From contig KV748224.1 of the NCBI GenBank assembly GCA_001692895.1, forward strand, positions 62,001 through 126,000: a stretch of DNA of 64,000 nucleotides. The letters run 5' to 3'. This document shows, one piece after another, positions 4,551 through 57,154 of this stretch. Below the pieces are notes generated by a model that did no database searches, was not told the DNA's origin, and saw only the letters and a program-made list of their open reading frames with translations. The DNA is from Cenococcum geophilum 1.58. Its lineage: Eukaryota > Ascomycota > Dothideomycetes > Gloniales > Gloniaceae. The first letter of the stretch is position 1; each line of letters starts with the position of its first letter. The position numbers were made by a program, and so were the translations under genes.

Positions 4551-4597
4551 AACTAATTATAATTTTCCATGCCAGGCATAGAAAATCGCCATTGGCT
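4551..4597. repeat. 47-bp hairpin, copy in the copia 3' region
   Basis: An imperfect palindrome whose arms carry ATTTTCCATGCC and GGCATAGAAAAT, about 270 bp before the candidate 3' LTR. It aligns end to end, without gaps, with copies at 8172-8218, 20565-20611 and 57108-57154. The tip of the stem differs from those copies on both arms so that pairing is kept. The following 30 bp also match the copy in element D. Confidence 0.8.
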
Positions 4598-4864
4598 CGC
4601 TTAGCACTAGCGCCTTAGCGGCCCTTAAAATCTAACTTATGGCTCATCTACTGCCTGTTAAAAGGCTATACGGTTTATTTTACGGACCGTAAGCAGGACT
4701 TACGGCCAGCTTAAGGTACCGTTTAGAAGGCAGCCTAGATAGCACCTCAGGGGAGATTTCCTATGTATTTTCCTTTATGTTTTATAGTTTTATTAAAGCA
4801 ATTACGGAGGCTGTATATAGGTGGTTTTATTTTTTAAGTACTGCTAGTGTATAATTATAGCACC

Positions 4865-5115
4865 TGTTATACTAAACGCGTGCTTACGCGTTTGGTACAC
4901 TAGGTACGCGTTTACGCGTTTAGTGCACTAACTACTTACTTACGTGTTTGGTGCACTTATAAAGCACTAACTAATTAGGGGGGAGGTGCATTAGTATATA
5001 AACCACGTAGTCTGCTTTATACAATCGACAGTTACCATCTAAACAAGTATACGACACTACATGTATTTCGTGCCCGTGGATACAACTTACTCGTACTATT
5101 AAGTTAGTACGAACA
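4865..5115 (+). repeat. Candidate 3' LTR of the second copia element
   Basis: Begins TGTTATACTAA and ends TTAGTACGAACA (imperfect inverted ends). It contains repeated ACGCGTTT/GTGCACTA blocks (4873-4960) and a TATATAAA box near 4997. No second copy is in the window, so the borders rest on the end symmetry alone. Confidence 0.45.
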
Positions 5116-7222
5116 ACTAAATATAAATAAGCTTTTAATAACCTAAAATATTATTTTATAACTACTTTAATTCTTACCTACTTTAATCTAAACCTTAAAT
5201 ATATTATTAAAATAAACTCGTCTAATTATATATTAGGAGGAGTATTATCGCAATATAATAAGAATGGTAAGCTACGCCTAGTAGCCTTTTTTTCCTAGAA
5301 ACTTACCCTTACTAAATTAAACTATAAGATATATAATAAGGAACTACTTATAATTATTAGATGCTTTAAATAATAGCATTTAGAACTTAAAGGATTGTTA
5401 TTCCTAATACGTGTATTCATAGACTATAAAACCTATAGTACTTTATAACTATAAAGTAATTAATACAGCGCTAAATTTATTAGGCTAAATACCTTTTATA
5501 ATTTAACTTTAAGATTACGTACTAACCTGGCAAACTTAATTAGAAGCCTAACTTATTAATATAATAATTATAGGACTTACTTATAAACGCCTTTAATAAA
5601 CAGATTATATATTAATTATAAATTCTACTACCCCCTAAACGCTTTAAAAAAACTATGCCCTATATTTCTAAACGCGAAGCTTAATAGGAATAAATTAGAA
5701 ATTAATAAGTGGGATATAGAAATTGATAAATTAATAGAGCACAAATATAAGAATGACCTTTAAATAGTAGATATAATAAAAGCAATTTAAATAGGGAAAT
5801 GGCAATATAAAGATATTACACTCGCTAAATGCGAAATTTGTAATAATCGGTTATACTATTAATAGAAGATAGTAGTTCCGAATTCTAAACCCTTACGATT
5901 TAAGATACTTAAATTTGTACACGATTCCCCTATAGTAGGATATCCTAGCTGTATAAAGACCTATAAGATTATCTAATAAGTATATTACTAGCCTATAATA
6001 TATAACTATATACAAAAATACATTTAAGTATATAGAATATATATATATAGGAAGACCTCTTATATAAAGAAGTAAGGAGTACTTTAACCGTTGCCAATTC
6101 TAATATAAAGACAGTAAGATATCTTAATTAACTTTATGGTTAACCTGCCTAACAGTAATAGGTTTATAAATGTTATAGTAGTTATTAATTATCTTATAAA
6201 AATGCAATATATAATTCCTATAAACTTAATTAATATAATATCAGTAGCCAAATATTTTATTAAGTACGTCTTTAAGCTATATAGACTTCCTAATTTAATA
6301 ATATCTAACTGCGGAAGCTAGTTTGTTTTAGACTTCTAGCAAGCTTTATATAAATAATTAAGTATATAAATATAACTCTTAACTATATTTTATTTAGAAA
6401 TAATTAGTTAAACTAAAATTATAAATGTAATTATAGAATAATACCTATAAATATACTGCTCCTACCTATAAGACGACTAGGAAAAGTAGCTACCTTTAGT
6501 TAAGTTTACTGTAAATAATACAAGAAATAAATTAATAGGCGTAACGCCGTTCTACGCAACCTACGGATAAAACCCTTAACTTATATCTAAACTATAACCC
6601 AAAATTAATATAATAGGACCTATAATTAAAAGGATTTAACTAATTAACGTATATAACTTTGCTAATTAAATAAAGCAGTTAACGGAATTATTATAAAGTA
6701 AATTAGCGTACGCTTAAATAGTATAGAAATAGTATATAAATAAAAAATAAGCTTCTATATAGGACTTTAGGGAAGGTAATATAGTTTACCTAAATACACG
6801 AAACCTAAAGACTTAAAAACCCTTAAAGAAACTAGACTAAAAGTTTACGGGCCTATACTAAATTAAGAAGAAACTAAGCCTATACGCTTATAAGCTTAAA
6901 CTACCAACTAAAATAAAAATATATCTAATATTTTACGTAAACTTACTATAATCTTTAAAAGGTAAACCTATAACTTATAAAGTGCCACTACTACCTTTTA
7001 TAATTATTAATAACGGTAACAGTTCTTACTTTATTAACTTAATTAATAATATATAATAGAAAATATAATCTAAATAATTTAAACTTCTTATTAAGTGGGA
7101 AGAATATAAAATATAAATTTAGGAAACCTATAACCAGATTAAGGCCAACGCGCCTTCCTTAGTAAAAGAATTCTATAAGGACCATTCTTTGCGGCCTATT
7201 TTAGCTAAATAGATATAATATA

Positions 7223-7945
7223 GGCCACTGCTAGCCATACACCCCCCAAATGATACGCGTATACCCCCTAATTGATACGCATACACCCCCTACCCTATTT
7301 GGTTTAGACGCTCCCTTATTAAGTTAGATGCTTCCTTATTAAGTTAGAATATTACGTGTGTTTGACTTATTTGCGCCTGTATCGCGAAAATTAAAGTACG
7401 CGCTATGTAAGTTTTATGACTGCAACATCACGATTAAGTCTTGATTTTAGTTATAGTTAAGTAGTAGAGTCTAAATTTGGATCGCGTATAAGTCGATTAA
7501 TTAGATTACGCAGTACTTTAAGGCGTGGCGCAAACTGATTTAGGTGCTGCTAGCTCTGCGTCGCACCGCGCCCGCGCCCACGCCCGCGCCCGCGCCTGCG
7601 CCTGCGCCCGGTAAGACCCAAATTAAACACCTCTGCTTCGCACCCAAGAGCCTATAATTGCAGAGCGTCGCGGCGGTCGGGCAGTTAACTCTATAACTAG
7701 CTCTATAATTGCCAATTACGTTAACAGATCTACTTATAGAGCCCTTAGTATTTAAGCGAAATACTATAGGCGCAAATAAGTTAAACGCACGTGATATTCT
7801 AACTTAATGAGGAAGTATCTAACTTAATAAGGGAGCGTCTAAACCAAATAGGGTAGGGGGTGTATGCGTATCAATTAGGGGGTGTATGCGTATCAATTAG
7901 GGGGTGTACGCGTATCATTTAGGGGGTGTATAGCTAGCAGTGGCC
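7223..7945. mobile_element. 723-bp non-autonomous TIR transposon (hAT-like) with iterons
   Basis: The ends are GGCCACTGCTAGC and its complement. The terminal inverted repeats run about 165 bp. An 8-bp target duplication ATAATATA flanks it at 7215-7222 and 7946-7953. Inside each TIR is a 21-22-bp unit (TACACCCCCTAATTGATACGC type), about three on the left and four on the right. The middle is non-coding and has a GCGCCC array. Unlike its surroundings it still has many CpA/TpG sites, so it is little RIP-mutated. The reversed family A element (about 57380) carries the uninterrupted site with a single ATAATATA, which proves both borders. An 8-bp duplication fits hAT (also P and KDZ types); no transposase is present, so the superfamily is an inference. 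Confidence 0.93.
7568..7610. repeat. GC-rich hexamer array (GCGCCC)n
   Basis: About seven imperfect GCGCCC/GCGCCT units inside the 723-bp TIR element. It is the most GC-rich stretch of the window apart from the host gene. Confidence 0.9.
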
Positions 7946-8066
7946 ATAATATAAAGGTAAATAACTACTACCTAATACGAATACACGAAACATAATAGCA
8001 GGAAGCTTAAAATTAAAAAGAACTTAAAATACGTTATAACGTTTGTAATACAATTACGTAATACGC

Positions 8067-8114
8067 AAGATATTAAGGAACTTTAACCACCGGTTAAAGT
8101 TGTCTAATTAGTTA
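8067..8114. repeat. Second hairpin (AACTTTAACC...GGTTAAAGTT), family A copy
   Basis: The core at 8079-8101 has perfect 10-bp arms around a 3-bp loop. The flanking bases also match copies in the reversed family A element (57225-57247 core) and in gypsy F (26492-26514 core). All copies lie in the 3' non-coding region, upstream of the 3' LTR. Confidence 0.75.
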
Positions 8115-8171
8115 GATCTGCCTTACTAAGACCTACTATAAAGATATTAGTTCTACTTACCGCCTTAACTA

Positions 8172-8218
8172 AGCCAATAGCGATTTTTTATCCTAGGGAT
8201 GGAAAATCCTAATTAGCC
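8172..8218. repeat. 47-bp hairpin, family A copy
   Basis: Aligns without gaps to copies in element D, the second copia and the reversed family A gypsy. It lies about 115 bp before the LTR. The arms pair over CGATTTTTTATCC / GGATGGAAAATC and again at the outer AGCCAAT/ATTAGCC ends. Confidence 0.8.
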
Positions 8219-8334
8219 TATTTAACGATAGAATTGGTAAAATCCTATACCGCAACCTAACGCGAAAACACACGCGATAAGTTATAAGTCTTAAATTAAA
8301 TTAAATTATTTAGACCTTCAGCTAAAAGGGGGGG

Positions 8335-8642
8335 TACTATAATAGGACTAGCTTAGTTATAGTAGGAATGTCTTAATAAAACACTTAATAGATAAATTCT
8401 AACGCTTTAACCAAATTCTACTAGATTAGTTAAATTCTACTAAAGTCTGTTAAAGACCGCGTGTATATATACGCACGCATTAACCACTAAGCCCCTAACT
8501 ATTTAATTATATAATTTTCTTGTTATTCCCTTCTCTTCTTTACGCAATGTCTTGTTTTTAGCAAGAGCTATATACCCTTAGATTTAGATAAAATTTATAT
8601 TATTCCTTTAAATCTTCCCTAAAGTCTCTTCGCGCCCTTACA
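8335..8642 (+). repeat. 3' LTR of gypsy A
   Basis: 308 bp following a run of seven G. It matches over its length the reversed LTR at 56683-56988, which fixes both ends. Contains a GTATATATACGC promoter-like stretch near 8463 and TAGAATTT-like triplets on its complement (8398-8450). Confidence 0.82.
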
Positions 8643-8959
8643 TTAAGGATATAAAAGGATAGTAAAAACTAAAAAGGTTTTTTACCTAGTTTTTTACCTA
8701 GTTTTTTTACCTAGTTTTTTACCTTTATGCTAGGAGATTGTTACGGAAGTAGGTATAAGCTATAATACAATATACTAAATGGGGTAGTAATTAAAGAATA
8801 CTACGTACGCGTAACTATATATAGTTAATATAAAGACATTTAGATACAGAAACAGAATAGGTTAGGTTAATATGGTTAAAGAAATAGAGGTAGTTATAGG
8901 ACGTGCGTAGGTGTCACGGGATAAATATGTGTAGGTAACTCCCATAACAGAGATAAGAG
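8643..8959. other. Unassigned AT-rich stretch
   Basis: No recognisable protein. It holds a short tandem array (8676-8724) and is otherwise AT-rich. It may be the 5' untranslated part of the LINE that follows, or older sequence into which gypsy A inserted. Confidence 0.4.
8676..8724. repeat. Tandem repeat of TTTTTTACCTAG, four copies
   Basis: Four copies of a 13-14-bp unit that differ only in T-run length. Possibly part of the LINE 5' untranslated region. Confidence 0.85.
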
Positions 8960-9598
8960 ACTTAAAGAGGTTATTTTCTACTAAAAAAACTAGGAAACCC
9001 CCCTATAAGCTATAAGCTTTAAAAAAATAAAATAGTAAAGGCTACTAAGCCTAAAATAAAACCTCCTATAGAGATAAGTGATGCTGAATTTTTATCTACT
9101 TCTTCTCCTCCTCTATCTTCCCCTTACCTATTTAGGAAAGATATAGAAGTAGAAAAAGTAGACAACCCGTCTCTAGCTTATACAAAAGAGAATAGAAAAA
9201 AAAGAAACCACCCCTTATTATCTCCTAAAAAAGATAACTAAAACTAAAAAAGAAATATAGTAAAAGCTAGGGCTAGTATAGCCAGTATATTCTTCCTCCC
9301 TCTTTCTTTAAAATAATACCTATAAAAGGCCTTAAAAAGCCTAACCTAGGCCTATATAAGGCTAAAAGAAAGAGAAAATAAAGAATAAGTTAAATAAATA
9401 AGGGATAACTTATAAAGTATTTTAGTAGGAGAAAATCCTACTATAAAAGAGAAAGAAAAAAGATAGGAGATAGATATCCTAAAAGGGACTAGTAGAAGAA
9501 GTAAGAGCTCTCCGTAAGGAGGTAGCCCCTAAGACCTATATAGAAAAGCTAAAGAAGAGCCTCTCTTTTTCTACTTATTCGCCTTCTTCTTCTCCTCC
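8960..9598 (+). pseudogene. LINE ORF1, first part
   Basis: A degenerate, Lys/Glu/Ser/Pro-rich reading frame, with a charged stretch ending near 9540 and a poly-Ser/Pro-like stretch (TCTTCTCCTCC) at the break. This fits the N-terminal half of a Tad1-type ORF1 (nucleic-acid-binding, Gag-like). It contains numerous TAA/TAG stops of RIP type. It is cut at 9598 by gypsy C, whose duplicated target is CCTCC, and resumes at 17542. Confidence 0.6.
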
Positions 9599-10020
9599 TA
9601 TTACGGACGCTTTAAGTACAATATTACGACTACTTGGAGAAGAGTTGGAAGAAGCTAGTTGGTTAATACAGGCACGGTCTAGGATGGAACCCGTAGAACC
9701 ATGTGACGAGGAATGGTAAGCGAGTTATATAATATTATACGCAGTATACGCAGTGTACGCGGTATACGCCTATGTATAATACGTATAACACGTATATTAT
9801 ATACAAGGAGGATTTTATAGGAGTACGGTTGTGTATTTAAGGACCCTTAGTCCCTACCTAGATAGTTCCTTCCTTATAGTAATTCTTAGAATATAATTAG
9901 AGTTAATCTATTAGGCAACTACTTTACCAGTTATTATTATGTTATTAACTTACTTGCAATACCTATATACCTAGCCTATTAATAAGTCTACCGTAGTTCC
10001 TACTATAAGGCTCCGTTATA
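9599..10020 (+). repeat. 5' LTR of gypsy C1
   Basis: 422 bp, the same length as the partner at 17120-17541. Contains alternating CGCAGTATA units near 9740-9770. Confidence 0.95.
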
Positions 10021-18292: not shown

Positions 18293-18457
18293 TATTGGGA
18301 ATATATCACGTGTGGTTACGTGTAGCCGCGGCACTAGCGTAGCGAGGAGCCTTAAGCTCCTCGCCCTCCCTCATTCCAATTAAAAAGCTTTATTAACTAA
18401 CATCACTGTAACCTACTCGAGTAGTCGTTATTAGTAAGTTACCCTGTGTAACTAATA
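18293..18457 (+). repeat. 5' LTR of element D
   Basis: 165 bp. Contains CACGTG and a GAGGAGCCTTAAGCTCCTC palindrome at about 18334-18352. Its direct-repeat partner is at 20894-21058. Confidence 0.93.
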
Positions 18458-19297
18458 CTAATCAGTGGTTAAATATATAGTCAACTATAGAGCAGCTAGG
18501 TTTTTGAATAGAAGAAATAGTCTTATATAGGGGTGCTATATGCGCTTATATGGAATAGATCCCGGCAATACTATACTACCTTAAACTTGCGGAAAACTAG
18601 TAATAAAAGTGTCACTAAGTACTAGGAGATACTAAGTTGCGTCTATTACGTAGAATAACCGCGTTTACGAAGATTTGGTTAAGTACTTTAGGTTAGAAGT
18701 GTTACTAAACCTAGGGTCCTAAGTTAACGTCCAAAACGCGTTAAACGACGTCTAAAACGCGTNAAACAANATCTTNAATTNCCTANNTCTTNATAGNAAA
18801 CCTACGAGATCCTATAAAACNGAAAATCNTACCTACCTTNGACGTATAACACCCCGTTAATTCTATACCTACTATGGCGTTAACCTACCTAAAGAAGTAT
18901 AAGGAAGATATTAACCTAAAGATATAGAATAAAGCTATAATTAACCTTATAAACGCTAATAAATAAGACTTAAATGGATTTTTATTATACCGTATAGTAT
19001 ATTATAAGGATAGTAAATATAATAATACCGCGCTATAGGAATGTATAAAGGAGGACTTTATTAGATGGATAAAGGAAATATAAGCTCTTATAAAGAAGGT
19101 TATTATATAAGACTTCCGTAACTTCCTTTAGGAGAATAGAGTATTTGTCCCTATAGATGGGGGCATTATTAGAGATAATATTTAGGAGCATATTATTAAT
19201 GCAAAAGAAGAGCATAAATGGACTCCATAAGAGATTGAGCACTAGAAGAAGCTTAACTTACGCTGGAATTTAAGTAATACACCACTAAAGACGCTTT

Positions 19298-19396
19298 AAC
19301 CTCCGTAAGAACCTCCGCAAGAATCTCCGCAAGAATCTCCGCAAGAACCTCCGCAGTAACCTTCGTAAGAACCCCCACAGCAACCTCCGTAGCAAC
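19298..19396 (+). repeat. 12-bp tandem array (QESP-type codons)
   Basis: About eight units of CAAGAATCTCCG or variants. The length is a multiple of three, so the frame is kept. Confidence 0.85.
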
Positions 19397-19464
19397 TACT
19401 ATAGATAACCTTAGGCTATTAAACACCTTAAGTTCCTTAAGCTGCCGTATCTTAACCCGTGCCG

Positions 19465-19608
19465 TAAGCTCCGTCCGTATAAGCTCCGTCTCTATAAGCT
19501 CCGTCCATATAAGCTCCGTCCACATAAGCTCCGTCCATATAAGCTCCATCCGTATAAGCTCCGTCCGTATAAGCTCCATCCGCATAAGCTCCGTCCGCGC
19601 AAGCTTTG
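19465..19608 (+). repeat. 15-bp tandem array (QAPSV-type codons)
   Basis: About nine units of ATAAGCTCCGTCC plus two variable bases (15 bp each). Read on the plus strand they give a Gln/stop-Ala-Pro-Ser-X pentapeptide. The long open frames on the opposite strand (DGAYTDGAY-like) are by-products of the repeat. Confidence 0.88.
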
Positions 19609-19727
19609 TCCCACTTAAGCGCCGAGACGTCTCCCCTAACCCCTACCGCGCCTAGATAACTGGCATAATAAGCTAAATCTATGAACAATATCCTAACCCA
19701 CTAGTAACTTCCGTAGCAACTTTCGCA

Positions 19728-19858
19728 GCAACCTCTATAAGAATCTCTGTAGTAATATCCGCAGTAATATCCGCAGCAATATCCGCAGTAATATCCGCAG
19801 TAACCTCCGCAGTAACCTCCGTAAAAGCTTCCGTAAAAGCTTCCGTAAAAGCCTCTAC
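19728..19858 (+). repeat. 12-bp tandem array (QYPQ-type codons)
   Basis: About ten units of CCGCAGTAATAT or variants. It is the third array in the same gag-like frame. Confidence 0.85.
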
Positions 19859-20564
19859 AATAACTTAGATCTACAAATAGTATCTTTAATTAGCAGCAAT
19901 AGTTACCTATTCCTCCATAAAGATTCTAAGACTTTTACGGTTCCTAAAGTAGCTACAGAGGTAGCTACTAGCGTGATTTAGATAGGGAGTTCTTATAAAG
20001 GGTACCGTGAAAAGAGAGTAATATAAGGGGGAAGCGGTTAGAACGGCATAGTTACGCTAGCAACGCCATAAGCGTAAAGAAAGAACTGTTAGTATCTACA
20101 GCAGTTATAAACCTAATAACTGTTATAACTAATATACCTATAAACCAACCCTATAATAAGATCCCGTGCCGATCTGCCAATAGAACCGACCCTATACTGG
20201 CACCGCACTACTATATACTATCGATAAACCGATAGCGTCGCTATGCCTGCTATTACGATACTGATTGCGCCAATACGCCTGCGATCTACCGACTAAATAA
20301 TTATGCCTATACGCCTACGATTAACCAACCGATTGATAGATAAGCTCTATACTTAACTACTATTACTACCGCCGCTGGTACCGTACTACTACCCGAACAG
20401 ACTTTTACTGCTTCCACCTGCAGCTAAACTAATACCTTACTGCCTTCCTACAGCACTATATCCATAAAAGAAGAATTGCCAGAAGCTTCTTATGGAACTT
20501 AGTAAGGTAGATAATGATACTAGGGTATGCTACCTGCGATATTCTATAGACCTTAACTTTAACT

Positions 20565-20611
20565 AGCCAATTAGGATTTTCCATCCCTAGGATGGAAAAT
20601 CGCTATTGGCT
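20565..20611. repeat. 47-bp hairpin, element D copy (best preserved)
   Basis: AGCCAAT, three bases, GATTTTCCATCC, a tiny loop, then GGATGGAAAATC, three bases, ATTGGCT. It is a nearly perfect long palindrome about 280 bp before the 3' LTR. Confidence 0.88.
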
Positions 20612-20893
20612 CGCTTACCACTAGCGCCTTGGCGGCCTTTGCAAGATATCCGCTTACTACTTCTAAACGATTCTTTCTCCTTTCTCTTCTTCTCCTTAGT
20701 TTAGTATTTTTACTAAATAGTAATCTATAAGCTTTGGTTTAGAGGCATTTGTATAAGCCGCTATAAGAGGCAAATTTTTGGACAGCGAGACTTATATTAT
20801 AATGGCAATAGTAAGTAAGAAGGATTGATATTTCTTACGCTAGTTAAGCGGTATTTTATATGTAAATGGCAACTATAAAAGAAGAGTTACTAG

Positions 20894-21058
20894 TGTTGGG
20901 AATATATTACGTGTGGTCACGTATAGCCGCGGCACTAGCGTGGCGAGGAGCCTTAAGCTCCTCGCCCTCCCTCATTCTAATTAAAAAGCTTTATTAACCA
21001 ATATCACTGTAACCTACTCAAGTAGTCGTTATTGGTGAGTCACCCTGTGTGACCAACA
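20894..21058 (+). repeat. 3' LTR of element D
   Basis: 165 bp with ends TGTTGG/CCAACA, followed by the duplicated target CTTAT. Confidence 0.93.
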
Positions 21059-23026
21059 CTTATAAGTATACTACCCCTCTTTATATTAATTATAAAGAAA
21101 AATACTTTACTAATAGTAAAGACTATAAGTCTCTTAAAGCAGCTAAACTGGTATATTAATAAGTATAAGCTTAGAAGATTCTATATATAGGAAGAAGAAA
21201 AGATCTCTCTAGTTTCTAAAGCTAAAGGAGAAATCTCCTTTATATAATATAATATAGGAAAAAGATAAGAAATATAGCAAACCCTACTAGAAATAAGATT
21301 TAGGAGAAAATAGATATTATCCTAGTATAATAACCTAGTACCTAGAAAGATAGATAAAAAGGATCCTACTTCTTTGTTCTATATCCTATACCTAACCCTA
21401 TCCTCCCTAATAATCTAGCTATTTGCCCTAGAGTAGCTATCTATATAAGGAAAACTAGTTCTAGTATTCTATAATATAGAAATAAGGAGGATATCTGCAA
21501 AGATATAGATATTGTAGTATTAGAAATCTATAGTTAATTTAAAAGATTTCTATTATTTAATATCTATAATAAGAGATAACTAAATAAGAACTCTAGGAAC
21601 TAAAGAAATAGTAAAACTACTATCTCTAGGGCTATTCTGGAACTAGAAATAGACCTCCCTATTATCTTAATAGGAGACTATAACCTATACTATATATAGT
21701 AAAACGCGCTAGCTAGAAATCTAACCAAAGAGGCTAAAGAACTAATAGACTAGCCAGATAAATATAACTACTAACTACTAAATTTAGATAAATAGGAAGG
21801 GGCCTTTTATAGATCTAATATAAGGGAAAAGTCTATTATGGACCTAGCCTTCTACTTAGGAAACTTTTAAGAAAATGCCTAGGACAATTAGACTATAATA
21901 AAAGAAATAGAATCTAATTATAAGACTATAACATTCTCTCTATTTACTAGAGAGATATAAAGATACCTATACCCTCTTTAAAAAAAAACTCCTTTCTTTA
22001 TTAAAAAGGTAAACTAGGAGCTTTTTTCTACTTCTTTAATAGAATAAGTTTAAGAACTAGAACTAGAAGGGGAAAACCCCTATATAGAGATAGGGGGAAA
22101 AGGTCCTCTAGCCTTTTGAGAAGATTTATATAGACTTACGGATAGGAGCTTAAGTACACTAGCCAATAACCTAGTAGTAGAGAAAGCTATCTCTAAGTTT
22201 AGAATCTACGAATTCTCTAAACTATAGTAGAATAAAGAGCTTCTATAGAAAAGACAAAAAATAGTAAAACTAGAAAGACTTTAAAAAGAATAACTGACTA
22301 GAAGCTCTAGACTAGAAGCCTATAAAAAAAGTTAAAAATTAATACTTCTATATAATAAGAGAAGCTAAAACTAGCTGCTAGAATAGTTTTCTAAAAAAAG
22401 TATAAGGAAAGGAGGTCTTTACTACCTTAAAATATATAAAGGAGGAAACACTATAAATAATCCTTAGTCTATAGTATAGTAAAGATAGGACTACTAGATT
22501 AGTACAAAGCTTTTATTACTACTCTATTCCCTAAACCCCCTCCTACTAGCCGTATAGAGTAGAAGGACTATATAATAGATAATAAATAGAAATAGCTAGA
22601 AATAGAGAAAATAGAAGTTAAATAAGTAATTTTCTCTAGCTTCAATAAAAAAGCTCTAGGGCTAGATAGGATATCTTTTATAATTTATAAAAGGCCTACC
22701 CTATTATAGAAGATATTCTATATAGAATCTATAGGATTTTATTTATCGTAGGCTATTAGCTAAAGGCCTAGAGAGAAGCTTAAGGAGTTATTCTCCCTAA
22801 AGTAAATAAGAAGGACTATTTTTTAGTAAAGTCCTATAGACCTATCTCTTTATTAAATTATCTAGAAAAGACTCTAGAGAAGATCCTTACTACTAGATTA
22901 GGATATCTAGCTAGTACTACTAGCTTACTTTAAGATTTATAATTAGGAGAAAGAAAACAGCAGTCTATAATAGATATAGTCCTATTACTTCTAAATAATA
23001 TCTAATCTAAAAATAGTAGGAAAAAA
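21059..23026 (+). pseudogene. LINE ORF2: end of ORF1, endonuclease and RT start
   Basis: After element D the LINE continues with an apurinic-type endonuclease (about 21170-21900, with LIGDYNLYY near 21670 matching the GDFN-H motif and DLAFYLGN near 21841) and then the N-terminal part of the reverse transcriptase (KVNKKDYFLVKSYRPISLL-like region near 22800-22860). The endonuclease nicks target DNA and the RT copies LINE RNA at the nick. RIP-type stops throughout. Cut at 23026 by a solo LTR with an AAAAA duplication. Confidence 0.8.
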
Positions 23027-25557: not shown

Positions 25558-26134
25558 AAAGCAAATCTAAAGACTACCTACTAGCTAGGTACTAATCTCT
25601 ATAAAATAAGGCCCTAAAACTAGTTTTAGGAGGGTTTAAAGGGTTTTCTAACCAAGCTATAGAGATTAAGGCCTCTATTCCTCCTCCCAGAAATTAGATT
25701 TAAAAAGCTTTATAATAGCTATATAATAAAAATCTTAAAATTTAAGAAAAACTATATAATTAAGAAAGCCTATATAGAAGAGAATAATAAAGATAGAGAC
25801 GAATTAGTAGCTAGTTCTAGCTCTAGTTTTAGCTCTAGAAACTCTACTATAAGGTACCTATTATAGCTTAAACTATAGCTATTATCCTTAGTCTCTAGGG
25901 TTAAATAGCTAGTCTAAAACTAGAAAATAGAGAGAATCTCTTTAGAATAGCAAAAACTGTAATTTCCTCCCATTTCTACATTCTTTTCTATCTCTAGAAG
26001 TAGTAAGGAAAAAGCTATATAAGAGTATTTAAGACTAGTAAAAGATCTATAGGAGGCTCTAGAATGAGACCTAATAAATATATACTATATAGATAGCTTT
26101 AAAGATAATAAATCTAATATAGTAGCTATATATA
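25558..26134 (+). pseudogene. LINE ORF2: post-RT linker and start of RNase H
   Basis: The frame after element E gives the RT thumb/linker (a GGFKGFSNQAIEI-like stretch near 25630, EASIPPPEIRFKKL near 25670) and enters RNase H at about 26085 (YYIDSFKDNKSNI, the first catalytic strand). Gypsy F cuts inside the RNase H, leaving TATA on both sides. Confidence 0.82.
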
Positions 26135-26327
26135 TGTCACGGAACGGGGGTAGTAGCTATAGAGCGTATATATTCAAGGAGTCTATAAGATATTACGCGA
26201 TTAATTATAAGGGCCGAGGGCGTAAGGAGGTAATATACCTACGTATAGCTAATATAAGCTATACGCGAGGTGTATATAAAAGCACGGGGCTCTCCTATAG
26301 AGGCCCCTATAGTAGGGTTCTATAAAA
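26135..26327 (-). repeat. 3' LTR of gypsy F1
   Basis: 193 bp, TGTCACGGAAC at its left edge. Partner at 32268-32460; a third copy, reversed, is at 45015-45207. Confidence 0.9.
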
Positions 26328-26491
26328 CTACCCCCCCTCCTATAAAGGCGGAGCTTCGGTAACGCTATGGTTACTATATATATATAAAAGGGACACTTAA
26401 GGTATAAAAAAGAAGAAAGGGGGGTATTACTAAAGGCTTAAAATAACGTTATATAATAGGGCTTGGCATTTAAAAATCCGACTAATTAGAT

Positions 26492-26514
26492 AACTTTAAC
26501 CGCTAGTTAAAGTT
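26492..26514. repeat. Second hairpin, gypsy F copy
   Basis: AACTTTAAC...GTTAAAGTT, 9-bp arms, about 165 bp inside the 3' LTR. About 46 bp around it match the reversed gypsy A copy at 57214-57260 in the same orientation relative to the element. Confidence 0.75.
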
Positions 26515-29500
26515 CCTAGATATCTTAACAATATTCCGGTTATATAATCGCACTTTACTATAATTTAATAGTAATTTGCCCTTACGTAATAATATATAAC
26601 GGTTTAACTCTATAAGGGCTCCTATAGAGAATTAGGTATAAAATCTCTACTTAGGCCTAGTTTGTGTAGGTTCGTATAGTAAAAGTCGCTAATTAGATTC
26701 TTCGCATTTTCAAAATCTTCCTATAGTTGCTATTCTGGCTAATCTATGTTAAATTCTATATATATAGCTCTGTAGTAAAGCCGTCGTCCTCTACCTTTGC
26801 TAAAGTATTTAGAGTTAATAATTCGTTTAACGGTCCACTCCTTATAGTTCTTATCTTTGTTCTTATCTTAAATTAGTACTAATAGGGGTTTAGGCTATAT
26901 CTATCCTAGTAAAGGGTTAGGCTAATAGAGGTATAGTAGCTATGGGTAAAATATAGGCTATATCCTATAGGTGGCTAGGGTAAGTAGAAGTTCTAGCTTA
27001 TATACAGCTCCCATATTAATAACTCGTTTAATTAAATAGGGGCCAAGGTTCTTATAATTAAGTAACTTTATAGGCCTCTANNTANANATATTANNTNNAT
27101 CTAGCTATACCTANTCGCNAACACGCATNTCTAGTAGTGGCGTTCTATNACGGTNNGCGAAGTAGGCCTACTTTACTTAAGCCTAGGCCATTTCTCCCTT
27201 ATAGTAGTTAAGTAGATTTTTTATATAATCTATATACTAGTTAATAAGTAGCATCTTAAGGCGTTTTCTATATAGCAGTTTTTTATTAATAGGTTCTAGT
27301 GGCTCTATGCCAGATTAGGGGTAATAACCCTTATTCGCGAAGAATAGGGTAAGTCCTATAGTGGTTAAGATATAGTTATTTACTTTAAATTAACTTAGTA
27401 GAAGGTAATCTACCTAGTTACTTTAACTATAGGCGACTACCTATTATAGGTACGCTTTTATACTAGTATTAGCGTTTTTTAGTTACTTAGCAGTTTTATA
27501 ATAAAAGGATATAAACATCTTAACGGAGATGCTAAGGCGTTAGTGGATTCGTCTCTATATATTAAAGTTAAATTATATACCTTAGTTAAACGTAATTAAG
27601 TTAGGTAACCTATATAGTTAGTAAAATTTACGGAAAAAGGCGTTAGTAATATCGCTAACAGCTACGCCTTTAGTTAGGACGTAGTGGCGCTCTTTTATAA
27701 GTTAGTATATTATTATAAGAATGTTCTTATAGGTACGGCCGTGTTATTTATAAGGTAGTAGGTTAATAACAAAATCTATAGTAATATCTGCCTATTATTA
27801 TATAAGTACTAGTAGAAGGTATAGTAGTCCTTAATACTTTATATTAAAGGCCTTAGCGCGCTTATAACTATAGTAGGCGCCTATAAAGCGTTTAACTAAG
27901 TCTATTATTTTTAGCTAGAAGTAATATTAGCTAAGAAGCTTATAGGTTCCTTCTTTACCTAGGTGGCCGCTTAATTAGAGGTTATAGGCTATTTAGATTA
28001 GTTGCTATTATAAATTTTCTAAGTTAGGGATAAATAGGCGGCCTCTATAATAGAGCCTATTCTCTTTTACTTTTAAGGCTGCTATATTAATCTAGCCTAA
28101 GCTTTAGAGGTTAGTAGGTAGTATATAGGCGCTAGCGGTTTTTGTAGCAATAAGTTAATATAGTAATAGGTTAATAGAGGTATTATATACTGTAGTAATA
28201 AGCTTATTAATTTTAGGAGGTAACTTTAGTTCTATAGTATAAAGCTAAGGTACAGTTAGCTCTATTATAGGTAGTATACCTAAGGCTAAATTTCGTGCTT
28301 TTAGGATCGTCTATTATTGGAGCTAATTATAAGGGTTATCTTTAGACTAAGAAAGGTCTTATAAGCGGCGTGTTAGGCTATTAGGTTTAGTACCTTATAC
28401 TTTTAGTCTATATATAATTTTAAAGTTAAAACTAGAGAGGAACTCGTTCTAGTATACTTAGCGTTAGTTTAGCTACTTGATAGTTATAAAGTATTTAAAA
28501 TTGCGATAGTCCGTAAGGACTTTAGTTGGCTAATTAGGTTNTACTAAGGAGAGTTCTAGTTAGAATTCCTTAAACGCTTATATAATTGCAAGAAGTTCCT
28601 TATTATAGATCTTATAGTTATACCCTTATAGTATAAGCTTAGACAAGTAAAATACGACTAGGTAGAGGAGGCCGTTATCGCCTATCTAGAAGAGGACGCC
28701 TGCGTTAACGTAGTCTAAGGAGTTAGTTTTAAGGTAGAGTTATTATCCTAGTATAAAGTAAGCTAGAATAGGTGCTTTAGTAAAAGCGTTTTTAAGGTCT
28801 TAGAACGCCTTCTTATATTTAGGCGTCTAGGTAAATTATAGGTACGTTTTCCTTCCTTTTATAAAAAGGCCCTTTGTTTATATTATTACTATAAATAGTG
28901 CTACTATACCTAAGAAGTTGTATATAAATTTTTAATAGAAGTTAGTAAAACTAAGGAAGGCTTATACGTCCTTAATACAGTTAAGGGCTTGCTATTTAGT
29001 AATTATATATAATTTCTTAGGGTCTATACAGACACCCTTAATAGTAATAATTAGTTTAAGGTATTTTACTTCTATAACTAAGAATTTACACTTCTTTAAA
29101 TTAATATAAAGTCCTATGTCCTTAAGGCGCTCTAGGACTTTTTAAATATACTTAGTATACTTAAAAGGGTTATTGCTATAAATAAGTATATTATCTAGGT
29201 ACGCAGAGTAGAAGTTATTAAGGTAGTCCTATAAGGCGTTATTAATATAGCTTTAGAAGGTACCTAGGCCATTATATACGCTAAAGGGCATAATAGTATA
29301 TTTAAATTGGCCGAAGCGTAATACAAATGCGGTTTTCTATTCGTTACCTTCCCGTATTTAAAAATAGTTAAAGGCGGCAATAATATTAAGCTTAGTATAG
29401 ATTTTAGCTTAACTAAGCCGCTTTAAAGTCTTATATATAAGCTGTACAGAGTATTAGTTCTTAATTATAATAGCGTTAAGTTCTCTATAGTTAACGCAGA

Positions 29501-32267
29501 ATTAAATACCTCCTTTTAACTTCTTAGTAAGAAGAATAGGGGCAGCTACTAAAGATATACTAGGGCGGATAAATTCTTTATTAAGGTATTCGTTAATATA
29601 CTTTTTTATAACTAAAAGTTCGTTTTTAGATATTAGGTAGGGTCTATTATAAAGTAGCATTTTTCCTTATTTAATATTAATAGTATAGTTATCGGGTTAA
29701 TATAGGGGGAGTATATCTACGCTCTTTTATAAGCATATATTAGTACAGTTATAGTACCTCTTAGGGAGGAGCTTATAGAGTTCCTTATTAGTAAGTCCTT
29801 TTTTAAGCTTTATAAACTTCTTAAAGTCTAAAGGTAAAAGTCTATAGAGTTCTATAGGGGCGTTATCTTTTAAAAGGTTAAGTATGTCTATCCTATTACT
29901 ATAGAGGACATAGTCTTATTCTTTATTAAGCTTATATAGTTATAATTAGGAGGCTGTAGTAATAGTCTAGCCTTTCCTATATACTATACGGTAGAAGGCC
30001 GCGGCACTTATATAATAGCAGTTAGTCGTAGGTAGAGTAATAAGAGGTTTCTTAGGTTAATATTCTAGTAAGTAAATAGAGGCGGCTGGGCTATATCCTA
30101 GGCAAGTCTCTCTATAGTATTTAAAGTTAAAGGTTGCTTCTCTCTTTTCCTAGTTAATGGCGGAATTATATTATTTAAGCTAGCTTATTCTAAGGATAAT
30201 AGGGTAGTTAGTAAGTAGTATAATATAGGCCTAAAGCTCTTTCTAGTGCCCGTTTATATCTAAGTAGAGTTATACTACGTAGGTAATCTTCTATACGGTA
30301 AAACTGCTGTTAGCGAGTTATAGGGCACGGGCTTTAGTAAGGGGTAAGGTAGGTAAACTATAAGTACGTACGAATTAGGTATCTATAAATTTATTAGTAG
30401 CTCCGCAGTTAATTATAAAACGGCTTTTATATTATTTTTCGGCAGTAGTTCCTATTATAGGTAAAATTATCTATTTCTATCCGTTTATCTTTACTAAGTT
30501 ATTTATTAAGTAGGCTAATATATAGATCCCTTTATTATTAGGGCGTCCCAACCTATAACTTAGGGTAAGAACTTAGTGTTTTCCGCTTTTGTATCTAATT
30601 CTACTGCTATTACTACGTCTTTGTTTTATACAGTAGTGGCATATAGTAACGTATTTAGTATTTAGGGCATTAGGTTAAGTATTAGGCGGTAGGTACTAAA
30701 CCTAGCTATTAGGTAGTTTAGGTTATTATAATAATAGCCTTTTTAACGGCATCTATAGCAGCGTCCTAGTTTTTAGAGTAGCTCGCGCTCTCCATCTAGG
30801 AGTTTTTATAAAAAGGTTAGTATAGAGAGGCTAATATTAGCTCTAGTGGTACTTAAGGTAGTAGGCGTTAGTGGCTTAGTATATATAGGTTTAGTAGGCC
30901 CAGAGGGCTTTTATAGAGAGGCTTTTAGGTAAAAGTTAGTAGTAGTAATTTAATTTAGTTGTTGTTTAATCTTTTATAGGACTACTACCATCTTATAAAC
31001 ATTGTTATAGTTATAGCTGGCAGCTGCGTAACTAAGGCAATAAGTAACTTTTTTAAAGAGATCCTCTTAGCCTTTAGTATTGTCTTAGGTAAGGGCTCTG
31101 GTGTATTGATAGAATTTAATAGGGCTTATCTTTAGGGTACGTAGTTTAGCTTAGTTGGTGGCTAGTAGGTTATAGTCGCGGTATATTAGGTTAAGATTAT
31201 TAAAGACTTTTTAGTAAGACTACTACTTTTAGGGGCTACTAGTCTTCTATTAGGCGAAGAGTCTATTAAATAGTATACCCTTTATTCGCCTAATAATGTA
31301 GCCAATCTTAATATCTTCCGTAGGAAAAAGGTAGGCGCTCTAAGTTAGTTTCTCGCAGATTTACATCTTTTAGTAGCTATATTTCTTGCGGTTTCCCTAA
31401 AAAAACTAGGGGATTAGAATAGCGTATATTAAACCCTATGGTAGCAGTTTAGGTCTAATTATTATAGCTTTTATTATCGCTGCTTTAGTAGGGGTTTCTA
31501 TTAGATAAAGCTACTTAGCGCTAACCCTTTATTAAGCGTTAAGTAGGTAAAGTTGCCGGGGGCGTAGAGACTTAAGTGGTGTTATATATAGTAAAGAGGT
31601 GTCTAGCGTTATTACAAATATACTTATTAAGCTAAGATTATAAGTATTTAATTATAATTTCTTTTTTAGTAACTATAGCAATTAGTATAATCTTATTCTT
31701 CTTTAACTATTAGACGTCGCGTTTAGACATATAGAGGTTATCTTTGGTTTCTTAATATATATTATCGGTAAGCGCCTTACAAGCTTATAGGTCTTAGATA
31801 ATATCGCGATCTTAGGTAGTACGTATCTTAGCTTATATAAGCTTTAGGTAGTAGTTCTATAGAAGGCAATAGTATTTATTAAGGTCTTGTGCTACTATTT
31901 TTACAAACGTCTCGGCGTCTTATATTTTAATTTTAATAAGTAATAGCTCTTCCGTTTACTTGTCTGTAGTTATATAGTTAATAAAAGATAAGATATTATT
32001 AGTGTCTATCTCCTTAGGGGCTAAGGCTAGGGCTAATAAATTGAATTCTTTTAGGATTAATTGGCGTTGTAGGTTAAGTATAGGTATTAGATTATTCTTT
32101 AGGTTTAATATAGTGCTAGTAAGGAATATTGTCTTACTATTGTAGGTTCCTTAGAAGTATAAAGTAAGGTAATTTATAAACACGCTGCTTTTAGCAGCGC
32201 CTATAGTATTATAAAGACGTAGAATTAGTTGTAGGCTAAGTATTAGTGGTAAAAAGGCGTAACGTAA

Positions 32268-32460
32268 TGTTATGGAACGGGGGCAGTGGCTATAGAGCGT
32301 ATGTATTTAAGGAGTCTATAAGACGTTACGCGATCGATTATAAGGGTCAAGGGCGTAAGGAGGTAATATACCTACGCGTAGCTAATATAAGCTATACGCG
32401 AGGTATACGCGAGAGCACGGGGCTCTCCTATGGAGGCCTCTGTAGTAGGGTTCCGTAATA
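32268..32460 (-). repeat. 5' LTR of gypsy F1
   Basis: 193 bp. The open frames that span the LTRs are by-products of the repeat. Confidence 0.9.
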
Positions 32461-45014: not shown

Positions 45015-45207
45015 TGTCATAGAACCCTACCGTAGGGGCCTCTATAGGAGAACCCCGTACTCTTATATACACCTCGCGTACAGCTTATATTAGCTACGCG
45101 TAGGTATATTATCTCCTTACGCCCTTAACCCTTACGATTAATTGCGTAACGTTTTGTAAACTCCTTAAATACATACGCTCTATAGCTACTGCCCCCGTCC
45201 TATAACA
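45015..45207 (+). repeat. 5' LTR of gypsy F3
   Basis: 193 bp, the reverse complement of the F1 LTRs, with ends TGTCATAGAAC/TATAACA. Confidence 0.9.
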
Positions 45208-49008: not shown

Positions 49009-49388
49009 TATTACGGAGTGAGTATAAGCGGCGATAATATATAGCAAGGTAGATATTATTAAGCTATATACATAAACTATATAAGGAGGTCAAGACGTTG
49101 CGTAAGGAAAGAAGGTAGGAAAATGGGAAGAAAGGGTATATATTATGGACTTAGTTGCTTAGTTAATATATACACGGAGCAGAATAGGATTTAGGTAGTA
49201 ATCCTGGCAGAACTTAGTAGGATTTGGTAAAACTTAGTAGAACTTAGTAGAATATAGTAGAATATAGCAAGTTGCCGTTAGATTGCCGTAGATTGCTATT
49301 AGATTACTATCTTATGGTTAGTCTTTAGTTATTAAGTTAGTAAAAATAGGTAAACGTATATAAGGTGTTACGGGGGTGTTTCATAACA
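49009..49388 (-). repeat. 3' LTR of gypsy G
   Basis: 380 bp. It has one more 10-bp AGAACTTAGT unit than its 370-bp partner. Confidence 0.93.
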
Positions 49389-52300: not shown

Positions 52301-54620
52301 GTACAATCTTATAGTTGTACGATCGGTATTCTGGTAGCTTATTAGCTTCCTTCCGTAAGAATACCTCTAGGCGGTTATAGTACTCTACTAATACCTTTAT
52401 AGTAGGGTTAGTATACTTCTTTAGTGCTAAGGCCTTCTTAATATTAGCTATAGTAACAGCGAAGATTATATATTTGGGTTTCTTAGCAAGTCGCGCTAGT
52501 AGGGTAGCTCTAATTATACGGATATCTAGGGTGCTAAGCTCGCTTGGATTGTCTATAGTTTCTTATTTAGGTTTAGGTTTAGTATTGGGTATAGAGTTGG
52601 TGTTAGATTTAGGTTTAGGTTTTTTAAGAATCCTTTTTATAGTAGAATACTAGTCCTTCTAGTATTTTTGTGTATTAAGCTTAAGCTTTTACTTAGCTTA
52701 GGGCGGTGTAGTGCTTAGTAATAACTTATAGAATTTAGTGGGGTTTTCGGATCCTTGGTGGATATTAATAGAGTTTTTATATTAATAGAATCTGGTAGAA
52801 TTTTTGGGTTGGTGGAATCTAGTAGATTCTTTAGGCGTAGGGTGGATATTGGTGGAAATCTTAGGCTAATAGATTTTAGTGGATTTTTTAGATTTTAGTT
52901 TAGGGTTAGGATGGTGTATTATAAGGTACTTCTGCTTATAATAGGAGGCAGTAAATAGAAGCTTAAGGTTGTCCTAATTAATGGTTACCTTGTGTAGCTT
53001 TATCTAGGGTTATTTAAGGATTATTAGGTAACCTAAGGTAGTAATAAAGAGCTTAATCAGTTCTTTGTGGTTTAGGTATTAGAGTTTTAGGTATATTACG
53101 TAGGTATTTTGGCCTAAGACTATGCGTTTACCATTAAATCTAAATACGTTAATATGCCGGTTAAGGGGGGTTAGGGTAAAACTATTATCTTACATAAAGA
53201 TCTTATTAATAAATCCTATACTACTAGCTCCTATATTAATTAGGACTTAAGTATTAGCCTATTAATTATTCTGCTAAAGATAACAGTTAATGGTTATACT
53301 ATAATCCTAAGAGTTAGAGTTTATAATATCTAAAGTATTTAATAAAACCCTAAGGCAGAGCCGTTCTGGAGAGCGACTTAATTCTAAGACGTGCCTTTTA
53401 GTAGTGAGTGGGAAGGGGTTCCTATAAAATGTTGGTTATAGCTTTACCCTTATAAGTGGTGCTTACTAGATATAGGGCTAAAACTAGGTAAATATTGGGG
53501 GCGGTAACCGGAAGATTAATGCGGTAAACGGTTGCTAGTGTTAGCTGTTTATAAATTGTTTTGGGGCGTAGGTAAGGGGACGAGATAGTATTTTAAGATA
53601 TAGTTTTTACTTTCGCACTTAAAGCAGAGGCCTAGCTTAATGCGTCTTTCTTATTTAGGGGACCTTAGTAGGGTGTACTTTAAGGTTCTAGTGTTAATAT
53701 CTATGGCGTTAGGGTGCTTAGGCTAAGATAATAACTTAGTAAACGTTTATAGGGTTGCCGTATTATATTAGGGGGCGGGCTTTAATATTAGGCGTAGTAT
53801 ATTATTATACCATTTATTAATGACGTTTATATAGGCATTAAAGGCTCCTAGTAGGTCTACGCCTATTAGGGAGGTTTTCAGTTTAGGGTTTAGAGATTTA
53901 ATAAGGCTGTTAATTAGTGCGGAGTTATTCTAGCCTATTTCCTTTATATAATGGTTAAATTTAGAGAAGTATATTAGGAAACTTTTTGTTTCTTAAGCTA
54001 TATAGTTTATTTTTCTCTAGGTAGTAGCTTAGCAGTTTATGTTACTATATAAGGCTTTAAGAAGTACAACTAGGCTTTATATTAAGGTTGGCTAAAGAGG
54101 TTTAATAAGGTTAGCTGCCTCTCCTTTTAGTTAACTTAGGGCGTAATAGAGTCGGTTAGCTTTAGTTAGGTAACGGATAGTATTACTAGTTAACTTATTT
54201 TTAAGCTGGCTTAGGAATAATAAGAGATTTTATTATTTACTAGTAAATACTAGGGGATCTAGTAGTTGTTCGGATTATTTTAGTATAGTAGTTAGTTTAA
54301 GGTAGACAATTACTATAGATTCGGGGCTTACGTTCCACGTGTTTATCTCTAGAGATAGTGTTTAGTCTTAGGGCCCTAATATAGGCATCTTAAGTATACG
54401 GATTTCTTCTTAGAGGTCCTTAATTAATCGCTAGTATTATACTTCTTATTCGGCTTATTATTAATTTAAAGTAGCTTAGTTTTATATAAAGGCGTCTATA
54501 AAAGACTTTTATATTTCTGCTAGTTATTTTTAGAGTACGGATATAATACCGGCGGCCGTTATAGGGGCTTTAGGGTCGTTCTGCATTTTGGAGGTAGTAT
54601 ATAAAGTTTACGCAATATAG

Positions 54621-54990
54621 TATTACAGAGTAAGTATAAGCGGCGATAATATATAGTAAGGTAGATATTATTAAGCTATATATATAAACTGTATAAGGAG
54701 GTTAAGACGTTATATAAGGAAAGAAGATAGGAAAATAAAAAGAAAGGGTATATATTATGGACTTAGTTGCTTAGTTAATATATACATAGAGTAGAATAGG
54801 ATTTAGGTGGTAGTCCTGGCAGAACTTAGTAGGATTTAGTAGAACTTGGTGGAATATGGTAGAATGTGGCAAGTTGCCGTTAGATTGCCGCAGATTGCTA
54901 TTAAATTGCCGTCTTATGGTCGGTCTTTAGTTGCTAAGTCGGTAGAAACAGGTGGACGTGTATAAGGTATTACGGGGGTGTTCTATAACA
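54621..54990 (-). repeat. 5' LTR of gypsy G
   Basis: 370 bp, followed by the duplicated target and the resumed F3 RNase H. Confidence 0.93.
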
Positions 54991-56682
54991 CGGTCTTCTT
55001 TACCTAGTTGCATTTTACTCGTCTAAGCTTATACTATAAGAGTATAACTATAAGATCTATAATAAAGAACTCCTTACAATTATATAAGCGTTTAAAGAAT
55101 TCTAACTAGAACTCTTCTTAGTAAAGCTTAATTAGCTAACTAAAGTTTTTATAAACTATCGCAACCTTAAGTACTTTATAACTATAAAGTAGCTAAACTA
55201 ACGCTAAGTATATTAGAACGAGATCCTCTCTAATTTTAACTTTAAAATTGTATATAGACTAGGAGTATAAGGTACTAAACCTAATAGCCTAATACGCCGC
55301 TTATAAGACCTTCCTTAGCCTAAAAATAACCCCTATAATTAGTTCTAATAATAGATAATCCTAAAAGTATAAAATTTAACCCTAGGTATACTACCTATAA
55401 TAGAGCTAACTATACCTTAGCTTTATACTACAGAACTAAAATTGCCTCCTAAAATTAGTGAGCTTATTACTACGGCATATAACACCTCTATTAACCTATT
55501 ACCGCAAAGACCGCTAGCGCCTATACGCTACTTATTAACCTCTAAAGCTTAGGCTAGATTAATATAGCAGCCTTAAAAGTAAAAGAAAATGGGCTCTATT
55601 ATAGAGGCCGCCTATTTATCCCCAACTTAAAAAATCTATAATAGCAACTAATCTAAATAGCCTATAACCTCCGATTAAGCGGCTACTTAGGTAAAAGAGG
55701 AACCTATAAGCTCCTTAGCTAATACTACTTCTAGCTAAAAAATAATAGACTTAGTTAAACGCTTTATAGGCGCCTGCTATGGTTATAAGCGCGCTAAGGC
55801 CTTTAATATAAAGTACTAAAGACTACTATACCCTCTATTAGTACCTATACAATAATAAGCAGATATTGCTATAGATTTCGTTATTAACCTACTACTCTAT
55901 AAATAACATAGCTGTACCTATAAAAACATCCTTATAATAATATACCAACTTATAAAAGAGCGCCACTACGTCCTAACTAAAGGTGTAGCCATTAGCGACG
56001 TTACTAACGCCTTTTTTTATAAAGTTTACCGACTACATAGGTTACCTAACTTAATTACGTCCAACTAAGGTATATAATTTAACTCCGATATATAGAGACA
56101 AATCTACTAACGCCTTAGTATCTCCGTTAAGATATTTATATCCTTTTATTATAAAACTACTAAGTAACTAGAAAATGCTAATACTAGTATAAAAGCGTAC
56201 CTATAATAGGTAGTTGCCTATAGTTAAGATAACTAAGTAGATTACCTCCCACTAGGTAAATTCGCAGCAAATAATTACGTTTTAACTACTATAGGACTTA
56301 CTCTATTTTTTATAAATAAGGGTTATTACCCCTAATCTAGTATAGAGCCACCAGAACCTATTAATAAAAAACTACTATATAGAAAACGCCTTAAAATACT
56401 ACTTACTAACTAGCATATAGACTATATAAAAAATCTACTTAACTACTATAAGGGAGAAATGGCCTAGGCTTAAGTAAAGTAGGCCTACTTCGCCGACCGT
56501 TATAGAACGCCACTACTAGAGATGCGTGTTGGCGACTAGGTATAGCTAGATATACGTAATATCTCTTTATAGAGGCCTATAAAGTCACTTAATTATAAGA
56601 ACCTTAGCCTCTATCTAATTAAATAAGTTATTAATAGGGGAGCCGTATATAAGCTAGAACTCCTACCTACCCTAGCTACCGA

Positions 56683-56988
56683 TAAGGGCGCGAAAAGACT
56701 TTAGGGAAGATTTAAAGGAATAATATAAATTCTATCTAAATCTAAGGGTATATAGCTCTCGCTAAGAATAAGACGTTACGTAAAGAAGAGAAAGGAATAA
56801 TAAGAGAATTATATAATTAAATAGTTAGGGGCTTAGTGGTTAATGCGTGCGTATATATACACGCGGTCTTTAATAGACTTTAATAAAATTTAATTAATCT
56901 AATAGAATTCTGTTAAAGCGTCGGAATTTATCTATTAAGTATTTTACTAAGATATTCCTACTATAACTAGGCTAGTCCTATTATAGTA
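56683..56988 (-). repeat. 3' LTR of family A, second copy
   Basis: 306 bp, matching the LTR at 8335-8642. The first two bases at the left edge are uncertain. Confidence 0.85.
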
Positions 56989-57107
56989 CCCCCCCTTTTA
57001 GCTAAAGGTCTAAATAATTTAATTTTAGTCAAGATTTATAACTTATTACGTGTTATATTTTCGCGTTAGGTAGCGGTATAAAGTTTTACCAATTCTATTA
57101 TTAAATA

Positions 57108-57154
57108 GGCCAATTAGGATTTTCTATCCCTAGGATAAAAAATTGCTATTAGCT
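57108..57154. repeat. 47-bp hairpin, second family A copy
   Basis: Gapless match to 8172-8218 in reverse orientation and to 20565-20611. More decayed than the copy in element D. Confidence 0.78.

Follow-up and report, generated by a model that had tools for sequence, protein, structure and literature searches.

A conserved 47-bp palindrome near the 3′ end of gypsy and copia-like retrotransposons in Cenococcum geophilum, a candidate cis-acting element within an exchangeable module

A 47-bp palindrome recurs in long terminal repeat (LTR) retrotransposons of the ascomycete Cenococcum geophilum 1.58. Four copies lie in the window analysed here, a 64-kb stretch of contig KV748224.1 whose positions are used throughout, and many more lie elsewhere in the 177-Mb, 162-contig assembly, the single genome covered. 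The reading that we favour, at a probability of roughly 0.4, is that the palindrome is a conserved cis-acting element near the 3′ end of the element RNA and the heart of an exchangeable 3′-end module, its function being one that we infer. An earlier note on the window described the copies as a hairpin with compensating stem changes in three LTR families; its observation is confirmed and is larger than stated, and its interpretation is partly supported.

The four copies align without gaps over 47 columns (Table 1) and cluster together in a direct-repeat search of the window, with 72-89% identity to the copy in element D. The copy in a copia-like element has a G-C pair near the loop where the D copy has C-G, the exchange described in the earlier note. 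With the 27-bp core in its C-type form and ≤3 mismatches, the window gave three matches at two places (8182, and 20575 on both strands) where 100 shuffles predict 0.00; the copia copy and the copy at 57108 lie more than three mismatches from this C-type pattern. In the whole genome, 1,833 places match the core pattern GATTTTC-N-AT-N-C-NNN-G-N-AT-N-GAAAATC and 3,721 match a near pattern (≤3 mismatches), and control patterns read backwards gave no exact or near match. Searches for the core in viral contigs and in bacterial and archaeal genomes also returned no match.

Of the 50 sites that the exact-core search listed on contig C1, the first 42 were taken for closer study (22 within twenty 9-kb stretches, 20 with 0.5 kb on either side), together with 30 further loci obtained with an element D query and the window itself. 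In these 357 kb a fuzzy scan found 80 palindromes, a few of them duplicated by overlap. Because exact-core sampling is biased towards an intact core, two flank-only samples were added with palindrome-free queries of 115 and 145 bases, one from a gypsy family and one from a copia-like family. These searches scored 40 of 496 and 40 of 750 candidates, and each sample consists of the next 20 hits after the query, which at 95-99% identity are close copies.

The palindrome is held by sequence far more strictly than its flanks. Conservation was measured in 23 hand-picked representatives by counting transversions only, which repeat-induced point mutation (RIP) does not make. The outer arms, which lie outside the search pattern, show 0.000 transversions per site on the right and 0.032 on the left, against 0.25-0.47 in the flanks when all 23 representatives are compared. 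Within the two flank classes described below, the right flank varies at 0.066 (class 1) and 0.201 (class 2) transversions per site and the left flank at 0.295 and 0.254, respectively. The core without its apex pair gives 0.007, a value to be read with the fact that most loci were chosen by their core. All 40 flank-only copies contain the palindrome, with 25-27 of the 27 core positions matching. Transversions inside it occur at the apex pair and the centre and, in the single copy L079, at two positions, and nowhere else.

The apex pair, core positions 11-17, exists in two states. Across the genome it is C-G at 936 sites (C-type) and, RIP forms included, G-C at 811 (G-type), and a single site is half-changed; the patterns used were slightly stricter than the one that gave 1,833 places, so that about 85 sites fall in no type. 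Pure RIP, the alternative that the earlier note had set against covariation, is ruled out for this pair because C/G swaps are transversions, and the contrast between the arms and the flanks likewise goes beyond what RIP would produce. RIP is accepted for most of the other variation, and in the genome copies listed for the copia reverse transcriptase domain RVT_2 the stops are mostly TAA and TAG, as RIP would leave them. Both apex types occur inside five families: gypsy-1, which is the gypsy A of the window (L062 against the rest), gypsy-2 (L059), Copia-1 (the window copy, L099 and L112), Copia-4 (L065 against L070) and Copia-2/D. For the last of these, a flank tree of 41 rows requires a minimum of three changes, with modest support (9 of 38 inner branches starred, two long end branches flagged). 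RIP itself strikes the two arms about independently, ignoring pairing: one-arm changes numbered 19 against 24.2 expected at pair 8-20 in the 50 listed C1 sites (F 0.21), and 12 against 11.0 at pair 11-17 in 23 G-types (F −0.10). It follows that the apex coupling probably arose in active element lineages, during the active life of the elements.

An account without selection, in which recent sharing between families is combined with template switching that homogenises the hairpin arms, seems improbable to us. Hairpins can arise and persist through template switching, which predicts that paired changes come with an inverted loop (PMC8794818). Inversion of the central base is seen in 5 of 116 copies, in one of which it is read through a RIP change. 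Four of the five belong to two switched lineages (the Copia-1 minority and L059), and the fifth, L049, is likely to be apex-switched; the central A of the window's copia copy would have been G before RIP. However, L062, L065 or L070, L063/L069, L044 and L051 are switched without central inversion. Moreover, template switching should hit all pairs, whereas pairs 12-16 and 9-19 show no double changes and the flanks vary freely.

The two apex states could also serve as a tag for self-recognition, by which genomic RNAs would pair through the palindrome and the switch would alter the pairing partners. The symmetry extends to the bases beside the centre, a clash would be expected only between C-type and G-type, and the two types are of similar frequency. 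Palindromes have been reported or proposed to drive RNA dimerisation in Ty3 (PAL6) and Ty1, and the sites described there (PMC11381356, PMC4974528) are short and lie near the 5′ end. The resemblance to these and to retroviral dimer sites (PMC516450) would be that of an element-RNA palindrome able to pair with itself. Unlike them, the present palindrome lies near the 3′ LTR or within the LTR, and five families carry both apex types, so that we consider a tag very unlikely. The same low standing is given to its broader form, a self-recognition code common to unrelated LTR retrotransposons whose lineages flip the apex to swap partners or to shed parasites.

The palindrome is present in at least six LTR-retrotransposon groups, three with it along the coding sense and three with it against, the coding sense being assigned by Pfam in three groups and by protein motifs in the others. 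Pfam identified RT_RNaseH_2 in a piece of L038 from gypsy-1 (9.1e-21) and RVT_1 in a piece of L032 from gypsy-2 (4.6e-7). Counted from the palindrome, the gypsy-1 RNase H stretch spans +2117 to +2357 on the minus strand, and that of gypsy-2 is a plus-strand stretch at about −2353 to −2114. Aligned by its flanks alone, L038 scores 41 with L031 and 43 with L045 if both run the same way, and 5 and 7 if one is reversed. Since the RNase H strands are opposite and the flanks align one way, the gypsy-1 module is reversed relative to coding; the two window copies of this family match with a score of 1041 on the minus strand and 46 on the plus strand (8172 against 57108). In Copia-4, RVT_2 is found at C1:2250158-2250820 (+) with a reverse-oriented palindrome about 1.0 kb downstream, and this hit confirms a copia identity for Copia-4 only. 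The palindrome presumably runs forward in Copia-1 (the window copia, L046) and Copia-2 (L037 and others) and against the coding strand in Copia-3, going by protein motifs that Pfam did not confirm. Neither Pfam on the pieces tried nor tblastn with RVT_2 pieces returned a copia identity for these three, and their copia label draws on the same kind of motifs and, for Copia-1, also on the naming in the earlier note. Further contexts that hold the palindrome (L039, L049, L051, L057/L064 and L068) were not assigned to an LTR element.

The anatomy of these groups suggests that the palindrome lies near the 3′ end of the element RNA in all placed families. Its distance from the LTR is 284 bp in element D and 120 bp in the gypsy-2 copy of L031, with runs resembling a polypurine tract (PPT) ending 118, 118 and 89 bp away in three gypsy-2 copies. 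In gypsy-1 a PPT-like G run ends 116-119 bp from the palindrome (four copies), and in Copia-4 the LTR or the end of the PPT-like run is 59 and 69 bp away. For Copia-1 the distance is 247 bp by a TG..CA-bounded copy in L045 or about 389 bp by a G-rich run. These values amend the range of about 115-280 bp proposed earlier. In Copia-3 the palindrome is within the LTR: it begins 56 bp into the 5′ LTR, and two elements, each with its LTR palindromes 5,756 bp apart, have matching 5-bp flanks (gttcc and attag). The host families were initially described as three and unrelated, a description that fails for the 3′ end of element D, which is shared from about +199 to +500 with the long family Copia-2.

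The palindrome is part of a module and not a bare unit. One of two right-flank types accompanies it at all 42 C1 sites, class 1 (YGCTTAnnnCTAGYGCC...) at 28 and class 2 (...RGCGGTAARC...) at 14, two of the latter being weak at 80% of the motif; left flanks are looser than right flanks. Conversely, in the loci picked for palindromes, and hence not as genome-wide fractions, the palindrome accompanies 15 of 15 local hits of the class-2 flank, 48 of 48 of the class-1 left flank and 59 of 67 of the class-1 right flank. The eight palindrome-free flanks represent a single sequence context (L031, L032, L045, L047, L049 twice, L050 and L060), which in the copies read is the gypsy-2 LTR, where a right-arm end and the class-1 flank abut a TATA-like stretch. 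The shared unit had been put at exactly 47 bp; this agrees with the gapless columns, but the copia and D copies share 80 bp at 82.5% identity (4547-4626 and 20561-20640).

A passenger origin, in which a small DNA module, mobile or recombining and of no use to its host, is tolerated near the 3′ LTR and multiplied by the element, would account for the two orientations, the several families, the non-coding location and the gypsy-like element C that lacks the palindrome. No target-site duplication was seen by eye at the ends of the palindrome or of the module, and one of two flank types is present at each of the 42 C1 sites; a bare 47-bp element, the tiny palindromic element offered earlier as an option, is thus not supported. 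On the same two grounds the passenger origin is unlikely, and also because the palindrome is more conserved than the remainder of the module and is retained in 40 of 40 flank-only copies. Simple descent of a whole 3′ end, which had been named as fatal to a structural claim, is rejected: families share the module blocks as a mosaic, and the palindrome is inverted in some of them. Plain strand transfer likewise misfits the reversed orientation in gypsy-1, Copia-3 and Copia-4.

Several smaller observations concern the surroundings of the module. Tandem repeats based on TTCTGCC adjoin it to the left of the palindrome in L039 and L049, and L065 and L070 differ by one 10-bp unit of this type. Read backwards, the class-1 right flank (CGCTAGTGGTAAGCG) presumably resembles a tRNA D arm with a loop that varies between families. 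An origin from a tRNA or a short interspersed nuclear element was dropped, because the D-arm-like loop is unconserved between families and an Rfam scan of the window gave no match at the gathering score, a judgement made without a tRNA finder. In gypsy-1, gypsy-2 and Copia-2 a shared block upstream of the module carries a second palindrome, PAL2 (AACTTTAACCGSCGGTTAAAGTT), which is also present in element C. There are 41 local matches to PAL2 at ≤6 mismatches, mostly with RIP-type changes, and the one at L041:4129 is probably due to chance.

Under the favoured reading, the palindrome would act in cis in the RNA, from the 3′ non-coding region or from the U3 of the 3′ LTR, and would give an identical hairpin in either insertion orientation. 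Its partner would more likely be a host factor (for export, 3′-end processing or stability) than an element protein, because the families that share it are expected to have different Gag proteins. The complementarity of the arms would be kept by selection, possibly helped by template switching in the hairpin, which may rewrite both arms in one step. The families would have acquired the module by exchange at the DNA level, because inversion misfits simple strand transfer.

A number of results weigh against this reading. The transversion swap is confined to the apex pair, and the genome-wide test for double changes, which covered pairs 12-16 and 9-19, gave zero at each, so that the fold counts for no more than the sequence. 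Covariation was scored in 86 of 115 copies (83 distinct rows) against a shuffle control that ignores relatedness. The score (0.119 against 0.075 in shuffles, reached by none of 500) and the number of cells changed on both sides (87 against 57.8) exceed the control. The count of pairs that change on both sides does not (4 against 4.6, reached by 500 of 500 shuffles), nor does the number of pair types (13 against 13.8). Pairing is broken, partly by RIP, in 41 of the 83 rows at pair 2-46, 29 at 10-39, 27 at 4-44 and 23 at 9-40, and pair 2-46 adds G-C (22) and A-U (20). Folding is uneven in the window. The folding energy of the D copy is −26.9 kcal/mol (z −7.0). The gypsy copy at 8172 and the minus strand of the copia copy each have z −2.8, whereas the plus strand of the copia copy has z −1.5 (equalled by 14 of 200 shuffles) and the copy at 57108 has z −0.7 (43 of 200). 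Element C (26134-32453) has PAL2 but no 47-bp palindrome before its LTR, so the palindrome is not universal. Finally, each outer arm matches the CCAAT-box consensus even when the two arms mismatch. The compensating changes claimed at the outset therefore stand for the apex pair and for transition pairs and fail at 12-16 and 9-19. Likewise, the suggestion of a selected structure or sequence exchanged among families stands in that gypsy and copia-like elements share it and it looks kept by selection, but pairing alone is not the constraint.

The main rival reading is a regulatory element at the DNA level. Two inverted CCAAT boxes would flank a 27-bp dyad to which a symmetric protein binds, the whole being a piece of a U3 promoter captured next to or inside LTRs. 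The CCAAT-box consensus is RRCCAAT. The left arm reads RRCCAAT in 45 of 86 aligned copies and in 85 when C to T is allowed; the right arm reads ATTGGYY in 27 and in 85 when G to A is allowed. With RIP-type changes allowed, 85 of 86 copies thus fit the box in each arm, and bases 2 and 46 vary within the consensus even where pairing breaks. Such elements function in either orientation, and the sequence of the palindrome is strictly conserved. The Copia-3 module sits inside the LTR, 56 bp from its start, and the gypsy-2 LTR places a right-arm end and the class-1 flank before a TATA-like stretch. Nevertheless, both boxes are intact in just 18 of 86 copies, RIP apart, and in most placed families the palindrome is outside the LTR and so is not copied to the 5′ promoter several kilobases away. 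Independent half-sites also predict many mixed C/G copies, and one was seen. On balance a DNA element appears less probable than the cis-acting RNA palindrome and is the alternative to be taken most seriously.

Gypsy and copia elements are thought to have little in common beyond their enzymes. A strictly conserved non-coding piece present in both, in either direction and with a symmetric two-state switch that has hardly any intermediates, would point to a common host-facing requirement of LTR elements. The constitutive transport element of simian retroviruses, an RNA structure to which a host factor is recruited, lies between the final gene and the 3′ LTR, and the palindrome may resemble it in location and in the idea of a host partner. 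No report of this palindrome was found in a literature search based mostly on listings of papers, and the nearest published analogue found, with clear differences, is that of the palindromic motifs of Sirevirus, a plant Ty1/copia genus (PMC2829016). That paper describes repeated motifs of palindromic form located upstream of the TATA box, together with an inverted repeat around the junction of the PPT and the 3′ LTR. As here, strongly conserved palindromes occur near the PPT and in the LTRs of otherwise divergent elements. The Sirevirus motifs, however, are short repeated boxes of one plant copia genus, mostly with a CGG-CCG core. The present palindrome is a 47-bp dyad with a two-state apex, found in both orientations in gypsy (by Pfam) and copia-like families, with a core SCCNGGS within GATTTTC...GAAAATC and one copy per 3′ end or LTR read. 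Paired changes in both arms are also known from hairpin template-switch mutations in rRNA, where a paired change with loop inversion is the strongest expected footprint and is very rare (PMC8794818). Template switching is there a mechanism of mutation studied in rRNA and not a class of element, and the question of selection versus template switching was raised for rRNA hairpins in the same work. Thousands of RIP-marked, frozen copies would provide a record by which the two could be separated.

Table 1. Positions in the 64-kb window of the palindrome copies, their modules and associated features.
Feature	Position	Strand	Remark
47-bp palindrome, copia-like element (sense + by protein motifs), G-type apex pair	4551..4597	+	
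Palindrome with class-1 right flank, common to copia and D	4547..4626	+	80 bp, 82.5%
Palindrome, gypsy A copy 1 (element sense +, palindrome reversed), C-type	8172..8218	-	
Class-2 module (palindrome and flanks), gypsy A copy 1	8134..8257	-	match to L049 module
Palindrome, element D, C-type, best folder among the four	20565..20611	+	
Element D LTR, one of two	18295..18466	+	
Element D LTR, second	20896..21067	+	begins 284 bp past palindrome
Palindrome, gypsy A copy 2 (element sense -, reversed relative to coding), C-type	57108..57154	+	
Class-2 module, gypsy A copy 2	57069..57192	+	
PAL2 upstream of module, gypsy A copy 1	8079..8101		
PAL2, gypsy A copy 2	57225..57247		
PAL2, gypsy-like element C	26492..26514		

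Some further features of the window elements were recorded. The two LTRs of element D and the matching stretch of Copia-2 contain another perfect hairpin or a near form of it (GGCGAGGAGCCTTAAGCTCCTCGCC). The middle of element D (19273-19871) consists largely of two minisatellites with 12-bp and 15-bp units, and the element looks non-autonomous. Copy 1 of gypsy A includes a 144-bp inverted repeat at 93% identity (7238-7381 and 7765-7908), possibly a small foldback insertion. At the left edge of the window, about 54-227, the sequence is similar (72% over 58 amino acids) to the RVT_2 domain of a copia locus.

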